From: Ideonella sp. A 288
Lineage (GTDB): Bacteria; Pseudomonadota; Gammaproteobacteria; Burkholderiales; Burkholderiaceae_C
DNA length: 64,000 nucleotides
Reading direction: 5' to 3'
Assembly (NCBI RefSeq): GCF_002198735.1
Contig: NZ_MWLO01000137.1
Span: forward strand, 248,001 to 312,000
Shown: positions 50,104 to 62,150 of the stretch, piece by piece
How the letters are laid out: every line of letters starts with the position of its first letter
How positions within the stretch are numbered: position 1 is the stretch's first letter
Notes under the pieces: generated by a model
What the model was told of the DNA's origin: nothing
What the model saw: the letters and a program-made list of their open reading frames with translations, nothing else
Databases searched by the model: none
Program-made: the position numbers and the translations under genes

Positions 50104-51180
50104 TCAGGCCGTGGCATCGGCGGGGTCGAACGCCAGCAAGGCGTCGCGGGCGCGCACGCGCACCGGCTCGGGCAGGAACGAGGCCTCGGCGGCGGCCAGG
50201 CCCATGCGCTGCAGGTCGGCCCAGCCGAAGCCGGCCTCGCGGTGCAGTTGCAGCGCCTCGGTGCTCATGTCGACGCAGGACATCAGCCGGTTGTCGGTGT
50301 GGAAGGACAGCGACACCCCGTGCCGGGCCAGCGAGCGGATCGGGTGCGCGGCCAGCGACGGCGCGGCACCGGTGTGCACGTTGCTGGTCGGGCAGACCTC
50401 GAGGTGCACCCGTCGCTCGGCCAGTTCGGCCAGCAGCGGTGCGGGGTCGCCCGGCCCGTCCAGCAGGTCGGCCAGCCGCACGCCGTGGCCGATGCGACGC
50501 GCGCCCAGGCGGGCGGCCTCCAGCACGCGCCCGCCGGCATCGGCCTCGCCAGCGTGCAAGGTGAGCGGCAGGCCGCCGTCCTGGACGCGGCGCAGCACGG
50601 CCGCATGGTCGGTGGCCGGGTGGCCGGCCTCGGCACCGGCCAGGTCGAAGCCGACCACGCCCCGGCCCTGGTAACGCAGCGCCAGCGCGGCGCTGCGGCC
50701 CACCTCGTCGGTGGGCAGGTGGCGCATCGCGCAGACAATCAGCCCGCTGGGCAGCGGGCTGCGCGCCAGGCCGGCCAGCAGGGCCTCCACCGCCGCCTCG
50801 CCCGACACGCCGAAGGGCTCGAACAGCAGCGGCGCGATGCGGAACTCGGCCAGCACGCAGCCATCGGCCCGCGCGTCCTCGGCGGCCTCGAAGGCCACGC
50901 GGGCCATCGCCTCGGGCGTGGCCATGGCCGCCACCGTCAGCGCGAAGCCGCGCAGGTACTCGACCAGCGAGCCGGCATGGGCCCGCGCCTCGAACCAGGC
51001 CGCCAGCGCCGGCACGTCGCCGGCCGGCGCGGCCAGCCCGCGTTCGCGCAGCAGGTCGAACAGCGTGGCCACGCGCAGGCCGCCGTCGAGGTGTTCGTGC
51101 AGCAGCACCTTCGGCAGTCGGTGGGCGATGGCCGCTTCGGCAGCAGCGCTCGGGCGTGGATGGCGGGCGGGGTCGGGCAT
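50104..51180 (-). CDS. add: Adenosine deaminase
   Basis: A 358-aa deaminase of the ADA/ADE family. Zinc-site HxH is in LPKVLLHEHLDGGLR; then LTLHAGEADAGGRVLEA (His and catalytic Glu region), RRIGHGVRLADLL and SLSFHTDNRLMSC with the Asp ligands. The first motif reads HEHLDGG rather than the common HTHLDG. It converts adenosine to inosine; adenine as substrate cannot be excluded. It is first in an operon with the 5'-nucleotidase and divergent from the BMP-family nucleoside-binding gene. Confidence 0.9.
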   Translation of the reverse strand: MPDPARHPRPSAAAEAAIAHRLPKVLLHEHLDGGLRVATLFDLLRERGLAAPAGDVPALAAWFEARAHAGSLVEYLRGFALTVAAMATPEAMARVAFEAAEDARADGCVLAEFRIAPLLFEPFGVSGEAAVEALLAGLARSPLPSGLIVCAMRHLPTDEVGRSAALALRYQGRGVVGFDLAGAEAGHPATDHAAVLRRVQDGGLPLTLHAGEADAGGRVLEAARLGARRIGHGVRLADLLDGPGDPAPLLAELAERRVHLEVCPTSNVHTGAAPSLAAHPIRSLARHGVSLSFHTDNRLMSCVDMSTEALQLHREAGFGWADLQRMGLAAAEASFLPEPVRVRARDALLAFDPADATA

Positions 51181-51336
51181 GGCGCGATGCTAGTGCAGCG
51201 CCGGCCCAGGTGGCCTCGTCGTCAACCCCTGCCCGGTGTCGGCCGTTGCCGGGGCAGGCTATCCCTCATGGCCCGCGGCCTGCAACTTGCTATCCTGCCG
51301 CCCACGTTCAACCACGCTCCGCAGGTGCCGCCCATC

Positions 51337-52308
51337 ATGTCCAACGCGCTCGTCGCCCTCCTCGGCCTCGCCTCGGCCACCGCCATCGCCCAGGCGCAGC
51401 CCGCCGTCATCTACGACATGGGCGGCAAGTTCGACAAGTCGTTCAACGAGGCCGCCTACAACGGCGCCGAGCGCTGGAAGAAGGAAACCGGCAAGCCCTT
51501 CCTCGATTTCGAGATCGGCAACGAGGCCCAGCGCGAGCAGGCCATGCGCCGCATGGCCGACAAGGGCGCCACGCCGGTGGTGGCGGTGGGCTTCTCGATG
51601 GCCAGCACGGTGGAGAAGGTGGCCAAGGACTATCCCAAGCTGCAGTTCGCCATCATCGACATGGTGGTCAAGCAGCCCAACGTCGAATCGGTGGTGTTCA
51701 AGGAGCAGGAAGGCAGCTTCCTGGTCGGGATGATGGCCGCCATCGCCAGCAAGACCGGCAAGGTGGGCTTCATCGGCGGCATGGACATCCCGCTGATCCG
51801 CAAGTTCCAGTGCGGTTTCGAGCAAGGCGCAAAGTACGCGAACCCCAAGGCCGAGGTCAGCGCCAACATGACCGGCACCACCAGCTCGGCCTGGAACGAC
51901 CCGGCCCGCGGCAGCGAGCTGGCCAAGGCCCAGTTCTCGAAGGGCGTGGACGTGATCTTCGCGGCCGCCGGCGGCACCGGCATCGGCGTCTACCAGGCCG
52001 CCAAGGACGGCGGCAAGCTGGCCATCGGCGTCGACAGCAACCAGAACCACCTGCAGCCCGGCACCATGCTCACCTCGATGGTCAAGCGGGTGGACGTGGC
52101 CGTGAACAACCTGTTCAAGAAGACCACGCCCGGGGCGTTCACGGCGCTGGGCCTGAAGGAAGGCGGCGTCGACTACGCGCTCGACAAGCACAACGAGAAG
52201 CTGGTCACCGCCGACATGAAGAAGAGGGTCGACGCCGCCAAGGCCGACATCATCGCCGGCAAGATCAAGGTGGCCGACTACATGGCGGACAACGCCTGCA
52301 AGTATTGA
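51337..52308 (+). CDS. BMP-family (PnrA-like) nucleoside ABC transporter substrate-binding protein
   Basis: A 323-aa periplasmic binding protein. Signal peptide MSNALVALLGLASATAIAQA, then AVIYDMGGKFDKSFNEAAYNG (the family opening), VVKQPNVESVVFKEQEGSFLVG, GKVGFIGGMDIPLIRKFQCGF and DVIFAAAGGTGIGVYQAA with the nucleoside-binding residues, and the tail DADLKKRV-like MKKRVDAAKADIIAGKIKV. Next to add and a 5'-nucleotidase, it probably binds purine nucleosides. No ABC ATPase or permease gene is adjacent. Its last 159 bases are repeated 4.3 kb downstream. Confidence 0.92.
   Translation: MSNALVALLGLASATAIAQAQPAVIYDMGGKFDKSFNEAAYNGAERWKKETGKPFLDFEIGNEAQREQAMRRMADKGATPVVAVGFSMASTVEKVAKDYPKLQFAIIDMVVKQPNVESVVFKEQEGSFLVGMMAAIASKTGKVGFIGGMDIPLIRKFQCGFEQGAKYANPKAEVSANMTGTTSSAWNDPARGSELAKAQFSKGVDVIFAAAGGTGIGVYQAAKDGGKLAIGVDSNQNHLQPGTMLTSMVKRVDVAVNNLFKKTTPGAFTALGLKEGGVDYALDKHNEKLVTADMKKRVDAAKADIIAGKIKVADYMADNACKY
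52149..52308 (+). repeat. Left copy of 160-bp direct repeat (3' end of bmp gene)
   Basis: The sequence from 52149 to the stop codon of the BMP gene recurs at 56479-56638 with 9 mismatches (about 94% identity), same orientation. Similarity begins abruptly at GGCCTGAAGG and fades within about 20 nt after the stop. The two copies bracket a 4.2-kb segment with different gene content. Confidence 0.95.
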
Positions 52309-52830
52309 ACGCCCAAGGCCGGCTGGCTCCGACCCCCTGCCCCGCAGGACTCAAGGAATGTGGCCGGGCCACGCCTTCCTGAAAACGTCGCAGTCCGACA
52401 ACGCGTGTCATGCGCCCGCCCAGGCTGGTTGGCCAGCTCGGGAACGGCCCTTCGCTGACTCGAGCGGAGTTGTTCGCATCGAGGGTGCCGGGCTGGTTGC
52501 GACTTTGGCTGCCGGCCACCTGAGCGACAACGCACCCGAACTTCTCGGCGCGCTGCAGCCTCGGGCCAGCGACGGTCGGCGCTGCGCGGGCGACGACCCC
52601 GATTCCAGGCGGAGGGTCACCGGCAGCGCCTGATCAGCACCCACTGCGTCGATGTCGTGCCGTCTCTCGAAGCTCCGTCGGGCTGCTCAGCCCCGGATCA
52701 GGGCAGGCACCTGATGAGCGGTGGGGCGTCGTTCCCGACCTGCTTCCTCTGACCTGGGGGGGTGATGGCAGTGGCGCGCATCTCCGGCGGCGGCTGAACC
52801 AGCCGCCGGAGTGTCGCCCTCGCGCGCGCC
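52309..52830. other. Intergenic start of the repeat-bracketed segment
   Basis: About 520 bp with no credible gene on either strand; several short open frames lack ribosome-binding sites and known motifs. It contains the hairpin listed at 52782-52811. Composition by eye is less GC-rich than the flanking bmp/add region. Confidence 0.4.
52782..52811 (-). terminator. Hairpin downstream of the DUF5666 gene
   Basis: Inverted repeat: eight perfect inner pairs (CGGCGGCT / AGCCGCCG around GAACC), extended by CTCC/GGAG after a 3-base bulge. It starts 19 bp past the stop of the minus-strand DUF5666 gene. No T tract, so a terminator or mRNA-stability role is inferred. Confidence 0.45.
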
Positions 52831-54303
52831 TCAGTCCTCGCCGATCTCCAACTCGCCGATCGTGCTGGTGCTGCGAGTCGCATCGACCACGTTCGTTGCC
52901 AGATTCGCGACCACGCCACGCGCATGCACGCTGGTGGGCACGGCTGGCGGTACCTGTACCGCGCGATAGAAACTGGTCGCGTCGATCAGGTTGCCGTCCA
53001 CGTCTCGGTAGCGCGTGCTCGCACCGGTCGCAACGTTGATGCCGGCAAGCGTCAACTGCGTGGTCGGTGTCTTGGCATCGGCTGCGGCCTTAACCACCAC
53101 CAGCGGATCAGCCTCGGTGCGTTCGAGGTACGCGGCAACCAGATTGCCGGCGCCGTCCTTGTACCCCTTGACCTCCAGGCGGTCGGCGACGTTCAACGCT
53201 GCCAGCGTGATGGTCCTGGGCTGGTTGCGGTCTGCGGTGCGGTCGATCAGCACCGTGTCGGCGTTGACGCGGACCGGGCGCCCGAGCAGGGTCACCGTGC
53301 CACCCGTCATATCCTTCTTCTGCATGCCCGCCTCGATGCGGACGTTCGACTGCAGCCTGATCACCACGAGCTTCGCCACCAGCACGCCACCGCTCAGCGT
53401 ACCTTCAACCTCGACCTTGAGTCCGTTGCGCAGATCGGCCGCAGTGCCGTTCGCGAACACGGCATTGGCGGCGTTCACAGCCTGGCTGTCCACCTTGAAG
53501 TTCGACAAGGACACGAAGCTCGACACATAGCCTTCGACTTCCATGCCATCGCCGTCCGAAGTGTTGATGCGATCACGATCCCGATCGCGCAATCGGTCCG
53601 CGGTAACGATCCCGTTGGCGTCCTGGCGGCCCTTCGCATCGATCGTCATGCCATTGGCCAATCCGGCCGGCCGATCGGCTGGGGCGATGCCCGAGAAGTC
53701 CACCGGCGTCCCACCTACCAAGCAGGTCCCGAGGGCGAGGTTCAGGTTGCTCACCAAGCCCCCGACCTCTACCTCGGAAACCCCGGTCACGAACGTTCCC
53801 CTGCGCTCCATGCGGGTGGCTCGCCACCCGTCGTTCGCCGGGTCCGGCAAACAACTGATTTCGACCAGATCGCCGATCGCGAACGAGTTCATGTCGCGCA
53901 AGGTCACGCCGTCGAAGACGGTTCCATCGTCGACATGGACGGTCTGCCCCAACACCGTGACCGTGTTCTGCACGCGGTTCATCGCGGTGATCGGGCCTTC
54001 GACGCAACTGTCGTAGCGGATGCTGTCAGCCACACCTGTGCCGTCGGCTTGAACACGGCCACGCACCTGAACGACCATGCCGAGGCGCAAGCGATCTCGT
54101 GTCAGCAACGCATCGTCAATCGTCACCGTCGCGTTGGCATCGTCGAACCGCACGCCATTGACGATGACGCTGCCGAACCCGGTGATGGGTCCGACAACCG
54201 TGCTCAGCGCGCCAGGGGCCGGCGTGCTGTCGCCACCGCCGCATGCGCCAAGCGCCAAGGCGCTCACCGCGCCGATCGTCCTCAGTATCTTGTTCGTCCA
54301 CAT
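52831..54303 (-). CDS. DUF5666-type exported lipoprotein
   Basis: A 490-aa protein with lipoprotein signal (VSALALGACGGG, lipobox LGAC at about residues 17-20) followed by repeated OB-like DUF5666 modules: GPITGFGSVIVNGVRFD, RLGMVVQVRGRVQADGTGVADSIRYD, GPITAMNRVQNTVTVLGQTVHVD, DGDGMEVEGYVSSFVSLSNF, NGLKVEVEGTLSGGVLVAKLVVIR in separate repeats. The family's role is unknown. A GGAGG lies 6 nt before the ATG at 54303; a TTG at 54324 is an inferior alternative. It is the last gene of the exported-protein set. Confidence 0.82.
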   Translation of the reverse strand: MWTNKILRTIGAVSALALGACGGGDSTPAPGALSTVVGPITGFGSVIVNGVRFDDANATVTIDDALLTRDRLRLGMVVQVRGRVQADGTGVADSIRYDSCVEGPITAMNRVQNTVTVLGQTVHVDDGTVFDGVTLRDMNSFAIGDLVEISCLPDPANDGWRATRMERRGTFVTGVSEVEVGGLVSNLNLALGTCLVGGTPVDFSGIAPADRPAGLANGMTIDAKGRQDANGIVTADRLRDRDRDRINTSDGDGMEVEGYVSSFVSLSNFKVDSQAVNAANAVFANGTAADLRNGLKVEVEGTLSGGVLVAKLVVIRLQSNVRIEAGMQKKDMTGGTVTLLGRPVRVNADTVLIDRTADRNQPRTITLAALNVADRLEVKGYKDGAGNLVAAYLERTEADPLVVVKAAADAKTPTTQLTLAGINVATGASTRYRDVDGNLIDATSFYRAVQVPPAVPTSVHARGVVANLATNVVDATRSTSTIGELEIGED

Positions 54304-54327
54304 GTTGGACCTCCGTTGATTCAACCG

Positions 54328-54447
54328 TTACCGGCCCTTGCCGGCGCTACCGTCCGAGCGCGGTGCGGCAGTACCCGCGCCGTGTCCCTCGCCGTAGCAC
54401 GGGCCCGTCCTGCGGCCTTGCACCGGCGGCTCGTCTGGAATCTTCAC
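54328..54447 (-). CDS. Possible 39-aa small protein
   Basis: A short frame starting at GTG (54447) and ending TAA (54328). It has a strong AAGGAG 6 nt upstream and encodes a basic, Gly/Pro-rich peptide beginning MKIPDEPPVQGRRTGPCYGE. It fills the gap between the 88-aa gene and the DUF5666 gene, with 18 and 24 bp spacing. No hydrophobic segment. It is unrecognised; the ribosome-binding site and exact fit in the gap are the only support. Confidence 0.4.
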   Translation of the reverse strand: MKIPDEPPVQGRRTGPCYGEGHGAGTAAPRSDGSAGKGR

Positions 54448-54465
54448 GCCATGCTCCTTCGAGCG

Positions 54466-54732
54466 TTACGTCATGCGCTCGTGATGCTCCTTCCGGATCT
54501 GCTCGCGCTCTTCGTTGATCTTCGCCTCGCGCATGCGACGTCGATACTCCGCGCGCTCCTGCGGGTTCATCAGGTCGTTGCCATAGATCCGCTCGCCATC
54601 CCGTTCCCGAGGCTTGGCCTGCACGTCCGCTCGTGTTGCCGTTACCCCAAAGGCGCGATCTTGCGCATCGACCATTACGGGCAACGAAACGGCAATCGCG
54701 ATCAACGACCCCGACAAACGCGAAGAACCCAT
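54466..54732 (-). CDS. Small periplasmic charged protein, 88 aa
   Basis: Signal peptide MGSSRLSGSLIAIAVSLPVMVDA, then a short mature part ending in a highly charged helix: RIYGNDLMNPQERAEYRRRMRE and INEEREQIRKEHHERM. Proteins with the IYG..LM.PQERAEYR motif occur in many proteobacteria but have no known function. AAGGAG lies 7 nt before the ATG at 54732. The gene is 65 bp downstream of the 401-aa secreted protein on the same strand. Confidence 0.72.
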   Translation of the reverse strand: MGSSRLSGSLIAIAVSLPVMVDAQDRAFGVTATRADVQAKPRERDGERIYGNDLMNPQERAEYRRRMREAKINEEREQIRKEHHERMT

Positions 54733-54797
54733 GTCGCTCTCCTTGGCCCGGGCGAGTGGGCGTTCAACGCCCACCCACTGCACCCTTCGACATGGAA

Positions 54798-56003
54798 TCA
54801 ATTCAGGCAGATGTCGAGGTAGGTGATTTGATTGACGGGATCGACCACCGGCTTGTACACGCCGCCGGTTTCACCTCCGCCACCGCCCGGCCCCTTGAGC
54901 GGTACCGATGCACTCAATGGCGCGAGCGACAGCAACACGGGCTCCGGCACGCCCGACATGACCGGTGGCGCCGTCACAGTGTTGAAGCTGAACCCGACCG
55001 CGGTTGGCGACGAATGGAAGGTCAGTCGCCACCAGCCCGCCTTGCTGACGTTCGCGGGAACGCCGTCACGCCGCAATTGCCAGTTGTAGCCATAAACCCA
55101 TTTACCGCCGACGTTCAGTTCAGGCGTGAAGCCAATGTCCCGCAGCAGCCAGGTCGTGCTCGCGCCGCCACCGGTGTCGACCCACGCCGTGCCGTTCCAG
55201 ACGAGATCGGGCCGCACATTGCCTTGTGCGGCGGTGGGGCACGCGGCAGTACCGAGCACGATCTTGGTCAAGTTCAGCCGTGCGTTCATCGTGCGGAGAA
55301 TCGCATAAGGCGACAGATACGCGAACGGCGCGTTGTCGCTGTCGCGCGCGCGAACACCCCAGATCTCGGTTGACCCTTGGCCATAGACGTGCCACATCTG
55401 CAGACCCTTGTACATCGGCTCCAACGTCGTCCGGTCGGCATAGGGAGTCACCTCGACGCGCAGCACCGATGTTGAAGGCCAGGTGCGGCTCTCGAGGTTG
55501 TCACCCCAATCCACATGGCTCGCGATGGCAGGCAAGGACTCCCCGCTCAGGAGCTTGCGCGAATCCGACGACCAGTCATTGGCCGGGATCTTCTGCCAGA
55601 ACATCTTCTCCACCGACAGGCCGTTGCAGGGCGCCGCAGGCGCAACGCACTGTGCCGCGGTCAAGTACGTCACGATCGATCCGCTGACTGCGGTGCAAGA
55701 CGTGTTCGGGTACTCCGTCGTACCGATGGTTTCCTTCTTATCGCAACCATAGGAGAAGGTCTTGCCCAACTCCGGCACGGGGCTGGGTGCGATGGTGAAG
55801 AACCATGCCACCGGGGATGTCGTCACATCCAGATCGAGTGCGGGGTACGACAGATTGTTGACCGCGGTCTCCCCGGCCGGAGGCTTCCCACCGCCGCCGG
55901 GAACCCCTTTGCCCTGGGCCATCGCAGCAGGCGCGGCGAGCGCGAACGCTGCAGCCACAGCGATCGAAGAAAGCGTGCGCGGAAGTTCATGTGCCTTGGT
56001 CAT
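54798..56003 (-). CDS. Secreted protein of unknown function, 401 aa
   Basis: A signal peptide (LSSIAVAAAFALAAPAAMA) is followed by a Gly/Pro linker (GKGVPGGGGKPPAG) and a large beta-rich domain with paired cysteines (SYGCDKKE, NTSCTAVS, AAQCVAPAAPC, GTAACPTA, DICLN) and many Trp/Tyr residues (ASTTWLLRDIGFTPELNVGG). No known domain was recognised. A second Gly-rich linker (GPGGGGGETGG) precedes the final 20 residues. AAGGAG lies 8 nt before the ATG at 56003. It heads the minus-strand set of exported proteins bracketed by the bmp repeats. Confidence 0.75.
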   Translation of the reverse strand: MTKAHELPRTLSSIAVAAAFALAAPAAMAQGKGVPGGGGKPPAGETAVNNLSYPALDLDVTTSPVAWFFTIAPSPVPELGKTFSYGCDKKETIGTTEYPNTSCTAVSGSIVTYLTAAQCVAPAAPCNGLSVEKMFWQKIPANDWSSDSRKLLSGESLPAIASHVDWGDNLESRTWPSTSVLRVEVTPYADRTTLEPMYKGLQMWHVYGQGSTEIWGVRARDSDNAPFAYLSPYAILRTMNARLNLTKIVLGTAACPTAAQGNVRPDLVWNGTAWVDTGGGASTTWLLRDIGFTPELNVGGKWVYGYNWQLRRDGVPANVSKAGWWRLTFHSSPTAVGFSFNTVTAPPVMSGVPEPVLLSLAPLSASVPLKGPGGGGGETGGVYKPVVDPVNQITYLDICLN

Positions 56004-56478
56004 CAGTTTTCTCCTTGAGTGAACGAGCACGCGGCAAGCTTGTCCCGGCTTACTTCCGGACTCCTGTATCGACCGAAGCCGGAACGAAACCTGCTGAACG
56101 AATGGTGCGCTATCGGTTGTGCACAGTGATCAGCGGGCCGGCGCATCACGCACCCGCTCCATTTCTGCTTTGCCATGTTTCGCATTTCCTGCCCAACCGA
56201 TGCGCACACCTTAGGCATTGGCTCCGGGCATCTTGTTGAGTGTGCTCACCGGTGCCTTCGGGAGCAGGCGCTGCGATTGCGAATTCGCAAATCACCCGAG
56301 GAATCGTCGCCGGGGCTTGGATCCTGGGGATCACCGCTTTGAGCGAGAGGGGCCTTGGGCTGCGCCGCCTTCAGGTAGGCCGTCGTCGAGCTGCCGCCAT
56401 GTGCTGCTCATCTCACCGCCGCCAGCAGGAGTGGGCGGTCCATCGTGGCCCTCGTCCCGACTGTCGCGTCGGCGATCC
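56004..56478. other. Upstream region of the exported-protein set, with palindrome
   Basis: About 475 bp with no supported gene. It should contain the promoter for the minus-strand exported-protein genes. A perfect 14-bp palindrome TTGCGAATTCGCAA lies at 56277-56290 and could be an operator. No remnant of the 5' part of a second bmp gene is recognisable. Confidence 0.4.
56277..56290. promoter_or_regulatory. 14-bp perfect palindrome, possible operator
   Basis: TTGCGAATTCGCAA is perfectly self-complementary and lies about 275 bp upstream of the secreted-protein gene in an otherwise featureless stretch. A role as protein-binding site is only inferred from symmetry. Confidence 0.25.
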
Positions 56479-56638
56479 GGGCCTGAAGGAAGGTGGCGTC
56501 GGCGAAGCGCTCGACAAGCACAACGAGAAATTGGCCACCGCCGACATGAAGAAGAGGGTCGACGCCGCCAAGGCCGACATCATCGCCGGCAAGATCAAGG
56601 TCGCCGACTACATGGCGGACAACGCCTGCAAGTACTGA
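56479..56638 (+). pseudogene. 3'-terminal fragment of a BMP-family gene (right repeat copy)
   Basis: Encodes only the last 52 residues of the BMP-family protein (GLKEGGVGEALDKHNEKLAT...ADNACKY) and its stop codon. Against 52150-52308 there are nine base differences: five silent and four that change three codons (DY to GE, V to A). Nothing upstream resembles the rest of the gene. The excess of silent change suggests that it diverged while still coding, for example as the end of a tandem paralogue, or as a displaced gene end after an insertion. Confidence 0.9.
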
Positions 56639-56668
56639 GTACCCCCGGGGCCGGGCTGGCCACAGGGT

Positions 56669-57667
56669 TCACTCCGGCTGGATCTTCGCCGCCCGGATCA
56701 CCGCCGCCCAACGCCTGATCTCGGCGTCCAGCAGCGCCTGCAGCTCTGCCGGTGAGCCCGCCGCCAGCCGCACCCCCATCGCGCCCAGGCGCTGCTGCAC
56801 CGCGGGCGAGGCCACCGCCTCGCGCACCGCGAGATTGAGCTGCTCCAGCACCGCCGCCGGGGTGCCCGCCGGCGCGGCCAGGGCGTTCCACGAGGCGACC
56901 GAATAGCCGCGCACGCCCACCTCCTGCACCGTGGGCACCGCGGGCCAGGCCGGGTGGCGCCGGTCGGACGACACCGCCAGCGCGCGCACCACGCCGGCGC
57001 TCACCTGCGGCAGCATGGGGCCGACGATCTCGAAGGCCAGATCGACCTCGCCGCCGCGCAGCGCGCCCAGCACCGCCGGCGAGCCTTTGTACGGCACCAC
57101 CAGCGCGTCGACCGCGGCGGCCGTCTTGAACCACTCGGCCGCCAGGTGCTGCGTGCTGCCGACCGCGATGGTGCCGATGGTCAGGCGGCCCGGCTGCGCC
57201 TTCGCGAAGGCCAGCGCCTCGCCCAGCGTCGCGAAGCGCGAGGCCGCCGGCACGAACAGGCCGAGGTCGAAGAAGCCCAGCGTCGAGATCGGTGCGAAAT
57301 CCTTCCGCGCGTCGTAGGGCAGTTGCTTGAACAGCGAGGCGCTGAGCGCATGGCTGTTGCTCATCAGCAGCAGCGTGTGGCCGTCGGGCCGGGCCGCGGC
57401 CACCAGTTGCGAGGCGACGATGCTGCCCGCGCTGGGCCGGTTGTCCACCACCACCGCCTGGCCCAGGCGGAGGGCCATCGACTCGGCCACCGCGCGCGCG
57501 GTGAGGTCGGCGATGCCGCCGGGTGCGAACGGCACCACCAGCGTGATCGGCCGCTCGGGGAAGCGAGTCGGCGCGTCGGCGCCCGCTGCGCGGCCCGGGA
57601 CGAGGCCGCACGCCGACAGGTGCAGCAGGGTGCGGCGGCGAAGGTGCAGGCCCGGGCCGGCCTTCAT
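56669..57667 (-). CDS. TctC-family substrate-binding protein
   Basis: A 332-aa Bug/TctC periplasmic binding protein. A leader with RRRTLLHLSACGLVPG is followed by FPERPITLVVPFAPGGIADLTARAVAESM and VVVDNRPSAGSIVASQLVA, the family core, and SGVPEV-like VPTVQEVGVRGYSVASW. A Cys in the leader (HLSAC) could be a lipidation site, but the context is not a clear lipobox. The start is the ATG at 57667; one at 57676 is equally possible. It is last in the minus-strand tcu-type cluster. Ligand probably a di- or tricarboxylate. Confidence 0.88.
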   Translation of the reverse strand: MKAGPGLHLRRRTLLHLSACGLVPGRAAGADAPTRFPERPITLVVPFAPGGIADLTARAVAESMALRLGQAVVVDNRPSAGSIVASQLVAAARPDGHTLLLMSNSHALSASLFKQLPYDARKDFAPISTLGFFDLGLFVPAASRFATLGEALAFAKAQPGRLTIGTIAVGSTQHLAAEWFKTAAAVDALVVPYKGSPAVLGALRGGEVDLAFEIVGPMLPQVSAGVVRALAVSSDRRHPAWPAVPTVQEVGVRGYSVASWNALAAPAGTPAAVLEQLNLAVREAVASPAVQQRLGAMGVRLAAGSPAELQALLDAEIRRWAAVIRAAKIQPE

Positions 57668-57719
57668 CGGCGGCATCGCTCGACCGGCACCGACACCCGC
57701 TGCACGCTGGCCACCACGC

Positions 57720-58523
57720 TCAGCGGAACGTGACCGACAGATCGGACAGCGGCGCGCCGCGCGTCGACGTCCAGCGCTCGCCGGCCTGCACCGGCCAGGC
57801 GTCGGTCCAGGTGCCGGTGGTGACGACATCGCCAGGCTGCAGGTCGGGCGCGCCGGGGCAGGCGCGCAGTTCCTTCAGGAAGTGCGCCAGCGCGTGCAGC
57901 GGGCTGTCGAGCACGTTGGCGCCGACGCCCTCCTCCACCAAGGTGTCGCCTCGGTACAGGCCCACGCGGGCGCCGGCCAGCACCGCATGCAATTGCGCGG
58001 CGTCGCGGGCCACCTGCGACACCGGCACGCGCCGGCCGACCAGCAGCCGCGCATGCAGGCCGCTGTCGGCCATGGTGTCCGCGGCGCTGAAGGTCCAGCC
58101 GGGCCGGTGCGATTGCACCACCTCGAACCCCGGCGCCACCCAGTCGAGCGCGTCGAACAAGTCGTCCAGCGTGGCCTCGGCCCGCGGCGTGGCCTTCAGG
58201 CCGAACACCACCTCGGGCTCCAGGCGCGGCTGGCAGGTGGCGTCCAGCGACAGGGTGCCCTCGCCTTGGTCATTCGCAAATGCCAAGGTGGTGTCCCACA
58301 CGGTGCCCCAGATCGGCGCGAAGACCTGGTACCGCGCCCAGATGGTCCGGTTGGTGAAGCCGATCTTGAAGCCGCGCGGCACCTCGCCCCGCGCCAGGCG
58401 CAGCGTGCGCACAGCCAGAGCCGCCTGGTAGGCGGCGGCCGGGTCGGTGAACGAGGTCGACGGCCCGGCCGGCGCCCAGGGGCGGCCGTTGTCGATGTGG
58501 CTGAGCAAGTCGTGCGGTGTCAT
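57720..58523 (-). CDS. 2-keto-4-pentenoate hydratase / fumarylacetoacetase-family enzyme
   Basis: A 267-aa FAH-superfamily protein. The segment RGFKIGFTNRTIWARYQVFAPIWG is the substrate-binding opening of MhpD-type hydratases; LEPEVVFGL supplies the two metal-binding Glu residues, and PGDVVTTGTWTDAWPVQAGERW the C-terminal loop. Such enzymes hydrate or decarboxylate 2-oxo-dienoic acids. Here it is in a tricarboxylate-type cluster, so the natural substrate is not certain. It lies 28 bp after tcuB and 52 bp before the TctC gene. Confidence 0.85.
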   Translation of the reverse strand: MTPHDLLSHIDNGRPWAPAGPSTSFTDPAAAYQAALAVRTLRLARGEVPRGFKIGFTNRTIWARYQVFAPIWGTVWDTTLAFANDQGEGTLSLDATCQPRLEPEVVFGLKATPRAEATLDDLFDALDWVAPGFEVVQSHRPGWTFSAADTMADSGLHARLLVGRRVPVSQVARDAAQLHAVLAGARVGLYRGDTLVEEGVGANVLDSPLHALAHFLKELRACPGAPDLQPGDVVTTGTWTDAWPVQAGERWTSTRGAPLSDLSVTFR

Positions 58524-58551
58524 CGCGGTCTCCCCGGTGTCTGGTGCGGGC

Positions 58552-59724
58552 TCATTCCGACCCCAGCCGCAGCCGGCTCGGCAGGCGGCGCTCGATGGCC
58601 CATTTGAGCAGCGCCGCGGCGCGGTAGGCGCCGTGCGCGAACTTGCCGTAGGGCATGGTGATGAACAACGCCATCACGCAGCCCAGGTGCAGCGCCAGCA
58701 GCAGCGCCATCGCGCCGGTGTCCCGGCCGGCCAGCAGGGCCAGCCCGGTGGCGCTGGTGCCGAACAGCAGCGCGATCAGGCCCAGGTCCATCGGCCGCTG
58801 CGATGGCTCACCCTGCTGCGGGTCGCGGCGCAGGTTCAGCCAGGCCAGGCCCGCCGGCCCGACCAGCAGGCCCAGGCCGCCGGCAGTGCCCAGCAGCACC
58901 GGCAGGCTGGTCACGGGATACGGCGCCGGCCAGCCCAGCAGGTAGTGGTAGCCGGTGGCCACCACGGTGGCGGCAAAGCAGGCCATGAAGCCGTAGAAGG
59001 TGGCGTGGTGGAAGCGCCTGCGGCGCAGCGTGAAGCGATCGTCCTCGTCGTGGCAGCCCTGGCCGTGGCCACCGTCCAGGTACTTCAGCTGCAAGGCATT
59101 CGACACCGCCTCGCCCAATGCGTCGGCCGATGACGCGCCCGGCGGCGCCAGTCGCCAGAAGCGCGCCACGCCGAGGCCCAGCGCCAGCAGCGCCCAGCCG
59201 AACACCGGCGCAAACAGCCACACCATCAGCCCGTGCGGCAGCACCGCGTAGAAGTTGCCGGCCAGCGGCGCGTGCCACAGGCCGCCGGTGAGCGCCAGCA
59301 CCAGCGCGATGAACAGTGCGAGGCTCGCGGCCAGCGCCAGCGCCACCGTCAGGCCGGCGCGCCGGTACAGCCGCGCGGCGGGCGCCGGCCAGGCGAAGTC
59401 GGCGTAGGTGGTGGCGCGCACCCGCGCCATCGCGCGCGGCACGTTCACCGCAAACTCGTGCGGCGGCGCGTACTGGCAGGCATGCAGGCAGGCGCCGCAC
59501 TGGTGGCACAGGTTGGCCAGGTAGTGCACGTCGGCGGCCGGGAACTCCAGCCGCCGCGCCATCGCCGGGAACACCGCGCAGAAGCCCTCGCAGTATCGGC
59601 AGGCATTGCAGATCTGCAGCACGCGGGCCACCTCGTCCACCGGCGAGCGTTGCGCGGGCGTGGCCGAGGCGATCGGGATCACGCGGCGCAGGGCCGGACG
59701 CGGCGTGGTGTCAGGCGGCGGCAC
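58552..59724 (-). CDS. tcuB: TcuB-like tricarballylate utilisation electron-transfer protein
   Basis: A 390-aa inner-membrane iron-sulfur protein. Two cysteine clusters are visible: [16 protein letters not shown] and [19 protein letters not shown], for two 4Fe-4S centres. Several membrane helices follow ([60 protein letters not shown]). In Salmonella TcuB reoxidises the flavin of TcuA by passing electrons to the quinone pool. Its start overlaps the tcuA stop by 14 bp. Confidence 0.9.
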
Positions 59725-61129
59725 GCTGGCCCTCCGGAGCGGCGGCCTGCTGCGCCGCCTGGGCCGCCGAGGCCCCGGCGATGCGCCCGAAGGCGGTGCC
59801 GATGGTCATGCCCACGCCGGCGGTGTAGCCCTGGCCCAGCACGTTGCCGGCCATGATCTCGCCGGCGGCGAACAGGTTGCCGCTGGGCCGGCTGCCGAAG
59901 TGCACCGCGGCGCGCCCGTCGACCTTCAGGCCGAGGTAGGTGAAGGTGACGCCGGGCTTGAGCGTGTAGGCATGGAAGGGCGGCGTGTCGATCGGCAGCG
60001 CCCAGTGCGTCTTGGCCGGCGACAGGCCCTCGGTGTGGCAGTCGTCGAGCACCGCATGGTCGAAGTGGCCGACGCGGCAGGCGGCGTTGTACTCGCGCAC
60101 GGTGTGCACGAATGGCTCGACCGGCAGGTCGAGTTGCCGCGCCAGCGCTTCCAGCGTGTCGGCGCGCGCCCCGCGGAACACCGGCGGCATGAAGCGGCCG
60201 ACCGCCTTGGCGTCGATCACCGAATGGCCCACCTGCCCGGGCTGCAGCGCCACCAGCCGGCCCCAGATCGCGTAGCGCTTGGGCCAGAAATCCTCGCCCT
60301 CGTCGTAGAAGCGACGGCCCTCGCGGTTGACCATGATGCCCAGCGACAGGCAGTCGACGCGGGTGACGATGCCGCCGTCGTACAGCGGCGCGCGCGCGTC
60401 GATGGCCACCATGTGCGCCTGCGTGGCATCGCCGATGGGGTCGGCGCCCTGGGCCAGCAGGTCCTTCAGCAGCACGCCCTGGTTGAAGCGCGTGCCGCGG
60501 ATCAGGAAGGCATCGGCCGGCCACTCGCCGCGCTCGTTGCGGCCCCAGGCCTCGCGCAGCCAGTCGCGGTTGGATTCGAAGCCGCCGCTGGCCACCACGG
60601 CGCTGCCCGCGGCGAGGCGCTCGCCGGACGTGGTGACGGCGGCGACGAAACGGTTGCCCTCGAGCTCGATCCGGGCCACCGGCGTGTCGTAGCGCACCTG
60701 CACGCCCAGCGCCTGCGCGCTGCGGTAGTAGGCATTGACCAGCGCCTTGCCGCCGCCCATGAAGAAGGCGTTGGTGCGGCTGAGGTGCAGCGTGCCCGAC
60801 AGCGAGGGCTGGAAGTGCACGCCGTGCCGGCGCATCCACGGCCGCACCTGCGCCGAATCGCGGATCGCCTGCCGCGCCAGCGCCTCGTCGGTCTTGCCCG
60901 CAGTGACCTTCAGCAGGTCCTGCCAGAACTCCTCTTCGGGGTAGGCCTCGGTGAGCACGTCCTCGGGTGCGTCGTGCATCGCGCGCAGGTTGCGGGTGTG
61001 CATCGAGTTGCCACCGCGCCATTCGCGCGGCGCGGCCTCGAGCATCAGCACCGACGCACCGGCCTCGCGGGCGGTGAGCGCGGCACACAGCGCGGCGTTG
61101 CCGCCGCCGATGACGAGCACATCGATCAT
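59711..61129 (-). CDS. tcuA: TcuA-like FAD-dependent tricarballylate dehydrogenase
   Basis: A 472-aa flavoprotein of the fumarate reductase/succinate dehydrogenase superfamily. It opens [27 protein letters not shown], with FAD-binding Gly motif and [28 protein letters not shown] and the C-terminal [25 protein letters not shown] complete the FAD site. In Salmonella TcuA oxidises tricarballylate to cis-aconitate. The start at ATG 61129 is exactly at the Rossmann fold. The order tcuA-tcuB matches the known operon, without tcuC or tcuR here. Confidence 0.9.
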
Positions 61130-61178
61130 GTCAGCGCTTGAAGTGCACGGCATCCACCGCCCGGGCGCATCGACACGA

Positions 61179-62150
61179 TCAGTCGGGCTTGATGCCGGCG
61201 CGCGAGACGATCTCTTTCCAGATCTTCTGCTGCTGCGCGATGAAGGCCGCGAACTCCTCCGGCGGGCCGCCGCCGCCGACCGCGCTGTCGCTGGCGAAGC
61301 GCTCGGTCACGCTGTTCGACTTGAGCGCCTTGTACGACTCCTCCTGCAGCCGCTTGACGATGTCGCGAGGGGTGCCGGCCGGGGCCAGGATGCCGTACCA
61401 CTGCGAGGTCTCGAAATCCTTGAAGCCCATCTCGGCGACCGTGGGCACGTCGGGCAGTGCTGGCAGGCGCTGCGGCGTGCCCACGGCGATGGCGCGCAGC
61501 TTGCCGCTGCGGATGTGTGGCAGCAGGGCCGGCAGCCCGGCGCTGCTGGCCTGGGTGCGGCCGGCCAGCAGATCGGTCAGCTGCGGGCCGGTGCCGCGGT
61601 ACGGGATGTGGGTGATGAACATGCCGGTGACGAGCTTCAGGTACTCCATCGCCAGGTGGCCGGCGCTGGCGTTGCCGGCCGATCCGTAGTTGAGCTGGCC
61701 CGGGTTCTTGCGCACGTAGGCGACGAACTCCTTGAAGTCCTTCGCCGGCACGTCGGGGTGGATGACGAACAGGTTGGGCACCTTGGCCAGCAGCGTGACG
61801 GGGACGAAGTCCTTGTTCACGTCGTAGGGCTGGTTCGGGAAGATGTACGGGTTCACCGCCAGCGAGCCGACATGGCCCAGGATGATGGTGTGGCCATCGG
61901 GCACGGCCTTGGCCACCTCGGTCATCGCCGGCAGGCCGGCACCGCCGCCCTTGTTGTCGACGAACACCGTCTGGCCCAGCTGCTTGGTCAGCTCATGCGC
62001 GACCGTGCGGGCGACGATCTCGCTGGTGCCGCCGGGCGCGAAGGGCACGACGAAGCGCACCGATTGCCTCGGCCAGGCGGCCTGCGCCGCGGCCCAGCCG
62101 GGCAGCAGGGCGATCGGCGCGCTCATCGCGGTGCGGCGGGTCAGTGTCAT
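61179..62150 (-). CDS. TctC-family substrate-binding protein
   Basis: A 323-aa Bug/TctC protein. Leader MTLTRRTAMSAPIALLPGWAAAQA; mature part RQSVRFVVPFAPGGTSEIVARTVAHEL, GQTVFVDNKGGGAGLPAMTEVAKA and PALPDVPTVAEMGFKDFETSQWYG. It directly precedes tcuA on the transcript and most likely supplies or senses the substrate of the dehydrogenase. It is one of three TctC proteins in this window, none beside tctA/tctB. Confidence 0.9.
   Translation of the reverse strand: MTLTRRTAMSAPIALLPGWAAAQAAWPRQSVRFVVPFAPGGTSEIVARTVAHELTKQLGQTVFVDNKGGGAGLPAMTEVAKAVPDGHTIILGHVGSLAVNPYIFPNQPYDVNKDFVPVTLLAKVPNLFVIHPDVPAKDFKEFVAYVRKNPGQLNYGSAGNASAGHLAMEYLKLVTGMFITHIPYRGTGPQLTDLLAGRTQASSAGLPALLPHIRSGKLRAIAVGTPQRLPALPDVPTVAEMGFKDFETSQWYGILAPAGTPRDIVKRLQEESYKALKSNSVTERFASDSAVGGGGPPEEFAAFIAQQQKIWKEIVSRAGIKPD

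Follow-up and report, generated by a model that had tools for sequence, protein, structure and literature searches.

In the window analysed here (64,000 nucleotides of contig NZ_MWLO01000137.1 of Ideonella sp. A 288), the last 160 bp of an intact gene for a BMP/PnrA-family substrate-binding protein, bmp, were found a second time about 4.3 kb downstream, and the segment between the two copies carries three genes (p401, p88 and a DUF5666 protein gene) that differ in composition from their neighbours. The explanation favoured, with about even confidence, is that a p401-p88-DUF5666 operon was inserted at the bmp end and left a duplication of 160-180 bp in a heavily rearranged nucleoside-salvage locus. 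The locus is most likely a scar left by earlier reshuffling of DNA, and not a mobile element of a new kind.

The repeated bmp end and the cassette

The principal features, in coordinates of the window, are as follows.

51328..52308, plus strand: bmp, intact BMP/PnrA-family substrate-binding protein gene (PF02608, E 3e-64)
52149..52308, plus strand: repeat copy A, the 3' end of the intact bmp; weak similarity runs on to ~52327
52831..54303, minus strand: DUF5666 protein gene, 490 aa (PF18914, E 4e-44, four stretches); lipoprotein-type signal by eye
54466..54732, minus strand: p88, small charged protein, 111-aa open reading frame (ORF) taken from an internal ATG; signal peptide by eye
54798..56003, minus strand: p401, 410-aa ORF (p410) taken from an internal ATG; signal peptide by eye; no family
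56479..56638, plus strand: repeat copy B, second bmp 3' end, now decaying and 30 bp short of the tctC stop codon
56669..57829, minus strand: tctC-family receptor gene (PF03401)

A 160-bp repeat of the bmp 3' end with nine mismatches, its copies some 4.3 kb apart, had been described in the original prediction from the sequence and was confirmed at 52149-52308 and 56479-56638; each copy is 160 nt long, the spacing is 4330 and the longest exact run common to both is 66 nt. The first copy of the gene was also described there as intact, and its protein does match PF02608 with 217 bits, above the Pfam gathering cut-off of 24.1. A search of the host genome with the 160-bp end (6.98 Mb in 164 contigs, 40 of 177 candidates being scored) recovered copies A and B at E 1e-78 and 1e-66 and otherwise gave two weak matches covering 34 and 36 query bases. 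The left edge of copy B is abrupt, 13 of the 60 preceding bases (22%) matching, and to the right of the stop codon a weak similarity between the copies extends for about 18-20 nt (composition-shuffle p 0.004; BLAST match to 52327). An insertion that duplicated the bmp end would explain in one event both sharp edges, the one to the left of B and the one to the right of A just past the stop codon.

The three ORFs between the copies all lie on the minus strand and, as read from the sequence, apparently form an operon of exported proteins; the signal peptides of p401 and p88 and the lipoprotein signal of the DUF5666 protein were judged by eye rather than with a predictor. Their GC content at third codon positions (GC3) ranges from 0.73 to 0.82, whereas eight neighbouring genes have 0.93-0.97, a difference that bears out the earlier description of a segment holding unrelated, differently composed genes. 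The non-coding flanks of the cassette have a GC content of 0.71 on the left, which is host-like, and 0.62 on the right.

Decay of copy B and the locus in relatives

A tree was built from the bmp ends of 20 relatives (16 of the genus, four of other genera) together with copies A and B. The two copies grouped together, as copies arising in the same lineage should, with a FastTree support of 0.93 and a modest ultrafast bootstrap (UFBoot) value of 83, and the duplication would date to this species' own lineage. Change has been confined almost entirely to one side, the branch of copy A measuring 0.0004 (IQ-TREE) or 0.003 (FastTree) and that of copy B 0.067. Seven of the nine differences could be polarised, and all seven had changed in copy B, A agreeing with 14 to 17 of the 17 genus orthologues; at five of these seven sites the base in copy B was found in none of the 17, and the remaining two of the nine sites are variable within the genus. 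Among the residues altered in copy B are a D and a Y on which all 17 orthologues agree, and a V at a position where these have V or I. The original prediction had counted five silent and four replacement changes between the copies, correctly, and had read them as divergence while coding. This reading was rejected, however, with change almost all on copy B, the invariant D and Y lost, and the polarised changes fitting drift: three of the seven are silent, as expected without selection (P 0.22), although over all nine the silent share (5/9) is a mild excess (P 0.036). Copy B is a decaying remnant of the bmp of this very lineage and not a sequence diverging under coding.

Among 20 same-genus relatives, a bmp orthologue was present in 17 and the other three had no such orthologue. 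In all 17, an ATP-binding cassette (ABC) transporter ATPase gene, not tctC, forms the downstream side, starting no more than about 160 bp past bmp, and the cassette is absent behind bmp; 14 of them also have ada upstream, within a distance of 1.5 kb. Each of the eight longer genus loci reads bmp, ATPase, perm1, perm2, cda, PNP, with cda or PNP set off by a preceding gap in some, and six of the eight continue with a 5'-nucleotidase gene. The ABC transporter genes are parted from bmp at the Ideonella sp. A 288 locus, and from the 17 of 17 loci with the ATPase gene behind bmp it follows that the native block from ATPase to PNP (about 5 kb, as measured in G020) has been lost here. No further bmp 3' ends were seen among the matches listed for the 20 genus genomes, besides one orthologue each and a paralogue, bmp2 (72-75% identity); no tandem bmp array was seen among them either, and five of them carry bmp2 at another place, where a TonB-type receptor gene precedes it and a valS-like gene (valS by eye) comes next. 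The original prediction had suggested that relatives might show an empty bmp-tctC junction or a two-gene bmp array. The genus relatives showed neither the cassette nor another bmp1-type end, so that these ancestral states did not turn up, and since the native operon behind bmp is also gone, the site is not simply a bmp-tctC junction plus an insert.

On the far side, four of the ten genus genomes from which a tctC orthologue was fetched have it end to end with the 5'-nucleotidase gene, with a gap of 25-29 bp in two and of about 0.5 and 0.8 kb in the other two. In Ideonella sp. A 288 it is copy B that stands beside tctC, and the 5'-nucleotidase gene is found about 15 kb past copy B. Between tctC and that gene, positions 57720-62150 hold genes for TcuB and TcuA of tricarballylate utilisation (NCBIfam, above cut-off), a TctC-type receptor and a hydratase-like gene.

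As judged from its family and its neighbours, the substrate of the bmp product is likely to be nucleosides; nucleoside binding has been reported for BMP-family proteins in the source extracts available. A divergent nucleoside-type set (ATPase, permease, permease, cda, PNP, deoA) with no close bmp of its own is carried on another contig of the host, C21 (L062:5594-12685). That this is the native operon displaced from the window was judged unlikely, because its ATPase and its two permeases fall with sequences from beyond the genus in the trees; the nearest-split supports were 0.945 to 0.99, except for perm1 (0.75), and cda grouped with L123, a locus of an uncultured beta-proteobacterium, at 0.99. 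The PNP and deoA trees had no outgroup and are uninformative on the origin of the C21 set. The orphan bmp of the window may serve the C21 transporter. The locus offers a readable case of a transporter operon taken apart, in which the binding-protein gene stays, the transporter genes behind it are gone, a divergent transporter set exists elsewhere in the genome, and an unrelated operon now lies behind bmp with a measurable scar.

Relatives of the cassette genes

The DUF5666 protein matches PF18914 with 149 bits (gathering cut-off 27). Its gene is followed by a hairpin that is likely a terminator:

52782..52816, minus strand: hairpin 3' of the DUF5666 gene, an inverted repeat found by eye (fold of 52760-52840, z-score -2.9)

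No family was found for p401 in Pfam, PHROGs, NCBIfam or PADLOC, nor for p88 in Pfam, NCBIfam or PADLOC, PHROGs giving one weak match of unknown function (E 0.027). A comparison of p401 with solved structures returned six matches, the best at E 0.17, which were taken as chance, and the structure models of p401 and the DUF5666 protein were unusably poor (mean pLDDT, the predicted local distance difference test, 28.7 and 46.5). No defence or phage genes were detected in the cassette with Pfam, PHROGs, NCBIfam and PADLOC, and no RNA family reached its gathering threshold in 51000-58000. As far as titles show, a literature search gave no paper about the DUF5666 domain itself.

The cassette genes are rare. 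The p410 ORF was matched in none of the 20 other genus genomes, some of which are incomplete, and weakly in five of 398 other family genomes; plasmids, phages, viral contigs and a first scan of genome contigs gave no match. A DUF5666 orthologue at E<=1e-60 was found in three of the 398 family genomes, with no further one in a 399-genome sample across the order; plasmids gave four partial matches (31-36%) and viral contigs none. In two genomes of one genus, G134 and G370, a DUF5666 orthologue 66-68% identical occurs together with a p401-like region and a p88-like stretch. At loci L067 and L068, a weak p401-homologous region (33%) lies directly upstream of DUF5666, and a p88-like stretch (65% over 46 aa) lies near it but on the opposite strand. 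No bmp match was found beside these related genes of G134 and G370 in the stretches tested (L068, L120). In composition and distribution the cassette has the look of a rare type of functional unit from outside the genus.

Elsewhere, DUF5666 genes adjoin either a p401-like region (G134, G370) or the gene of a p580-type protein (L123, host contig C64), and of the DUF5666 loci examined only that of Ideonella sp. A 288 has bmp ends on both sides. The C64 gene is a second DUF5666 gene of the host, 47% identical, and lies behind a PEP-CTERM protein gene; at L202:7389-11002 a DUF5666 gene comes after a PEP-CTERM protein gene, the pair that L123 has as well (43% and 51% identity). A two-bmp array with DUF5666 inside it is present at L123:3901-10472, in the order bmp2, DUF5666, p580, ada, bmp1; the bmp genes there are 5.7 kb apart, with the DUF5666 gene, the gene of a 580-aa protein and ada between them.

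A DUF5666 gene stands end to end with a bmp-family gene in L123 and L141, across gaps of 97 and 375 bp respectively, as it does in the window across 522 bp. Searches with two bmp queries of 1.05 Mb around 117 DUF5666 genes at 73 loci gave four bmp-family matches, two of them L123 and L141. The link was noticed post hoc from three cases, including the window, and four matches in 1.05 Mb are too few for a firm test; that bmp-family 3' ends are a recurrent landing site for DUF5666 operons, reached by a route without an integrase of their own, is regarded as very unlikely. Should further genomes bear the link out, a landing site without a known enzyme would be indicated.

Origin of the arrangement and known systems

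In the favoured explanation, an operon of apparently exported proteins, probably from outside the genus, would have entered at the bmp 3' end, and recombination, most simply by the homologous pathway of the host, would have left 160-180 bp of that end on both sides, in the Campbell-like arrangement that one crossover with a circle gives. Near copy A leaves bmp intact, far copy B is no longer part of a gene and is decaying, and the native ATPase-permease-permease-cda-PNP block is also gone from this nucleoside-salvage locus. The repeat, the break in composition, the grouping of A with B, the decay confined to B, the missing neighbouring operon and the failure to see a cassette or another bmp1-type end in the genus relatives are observations. 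What we infer is that a single event brought both insertion and duplication, whether deletion or insertion came first, where the cassette originated and by which route it recombined. A further feature of the left flank bears on this history:

52395..52464, plus strand: copy of a dispersed genus intergenic repeat, with a degenerate left arm, an extent set by eye and a GAGTCA...TGACTC dyad

The 22-bp core of this repeat occurs at nine places in the host genome (<=2 mismatches) and at none in a reversed control, and is also present in several members of the genus; at L205 and L210, it lies just upstream of a ribosomal-protein-like gene (by eye). Together with the host-like left flank, it fits repeated local rearrangement.

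Several observations weigh against such an insertion. As the original prediction had stated, no integrase accompanies the cassette, none being found with Pfam and PHROGs in its three genes or in five ORFs of at least 80 aa from both non-coding flanks, nor in six ORFs scanned farther downstream. There is no tRNA in the window, and the attachment-like cores or integrase remnants which it had been suggested might lie between the copies were not found. A detached bmp end was not met in the phages and viral contigs searched: phages gave no match to the bmp end, and viral contigs gave a single match, to a whole bmp gene. (That contig, L218, which ends in a bmp 3' end, was considered as a carrier of an attachment end and rejected, holding as it does the whole gene; plasmid matches came from six records of 0.6-4.9 Mb at 58-69% identity.) The host-like composition of the left flank and the genus repeat in it mean that the 4.2 kb need not be wholly foreign. 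The gene order from bmp to the 5'-nucleotidase gene, moreover, is unlike that of the relatives, so that rearrangement in several steps is nearly as conceivable. Finally, seven of the nine differences between A and B fall within 42 nt near the broken edge of B (p 0.023), which simple drift predicts poorly; this cluster could be a tract of error-prone repair or conversion.

A close rival, nearly as good as insertion and tentatively entertained, is that bmp was doubled in tandem on this lineage with the cassette between the copies, that the 5' part of the second copy was deleted, and that a further deletion of the ABC genes joined its end to tctC. Tandem duplication predicts the grouping of A with B, and the rearranged state of the locus relative to its relatives also speaks for it, as does the existence in L123 of a two-bmp array with DUF5666 between. 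The L123 site, however, is not equivalent to that of the window, because its other bmp is bmp2, the 65% paralogue, and ada is on the opposite side. No tandem pair was seen in the 20 genus relatives, where bmp2 in five lies elsewhere, the similarity to bmp is gone immediately left of B, and more independent steps would be needed. Of the original prediction, its two proposed mechanisms, insertion and a truncated tandem copy, both survive, and p410 is without a match in the 20 genus genomes searched; the ancestral states that it led one to expect were the part that failed to appear.

It is improbable that the cassette is the remnant of an integrase-borne element of the e14/icd kind or of a cis-mobilizable element (CIME) whose integrase has been lost, with copy A as the end supplied by the element and copy B as the displaced native end. 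The geometry and repeat size do resemble those of e14 at icd (163 bp; PMC6379469, in the part available), and the insert falls inside the 1.2-13 kb CIME range given in the extract of PMC7563491. Against this, the cassette lacks an integrase or phage gene, the phages and viral contigs searched yielded no element with a detached bmp end, and almost no changes have accumulated in A, whereas an imported end should carry changes of its own unless it came from the same species. An assembly artefact, two contigs having been wrongly joined through the repeat, is most improbable of all: the genome is a draft of 164 contigs and the 66-nt exact run is short enough to confuse small word sizes, but the contig is 327 kb long, genes on both sides have genus orthologues, and A and B differ at nine places, so that they are not one sequence counted twice.

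Known systems with which the locus may be compared are the e14 prophage at icd of Escherichia coli, with its gene-end duplication of 163 bp (PMC6379469), attL/attR pairs, with identity blocks of up to about 250 bp (PMC10111431), and classical CIMEs, which span 1.2-13 kb, keep their flanking sites and have no recombination genes (PMC7563491), each as described in the portion of the source available. Because no integrase was found and phages and viral contigs yielded no detached bmp end, membership in any of these classes is not claimed. As in the e14/icd account just cited, the last 160 bp or so of a protein gene stand on both sides of the insert and the gene, here bmp, is left open; unlike e14, no integrase or phage gene was found here, the insert is only 4.2 kb, and divergence lies in the far copy, not in the end that completes the gene. 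As in the CIMEs of the same extract, a small cargo lies between direct repeats at a gene 3' end without recombination genes; no attachment core was identified here, however, and these searches found no integrative and conjugative element (ICE) or integrative and mobilizable element (IME) using the bmp end. With a truncated tandem duplicate, that is a pseudogene fragment, the locus shares a copy from the same lineage that is past coding constraint, but in place of the missing 5' part it has an unrelated operon with an abrupt edge.

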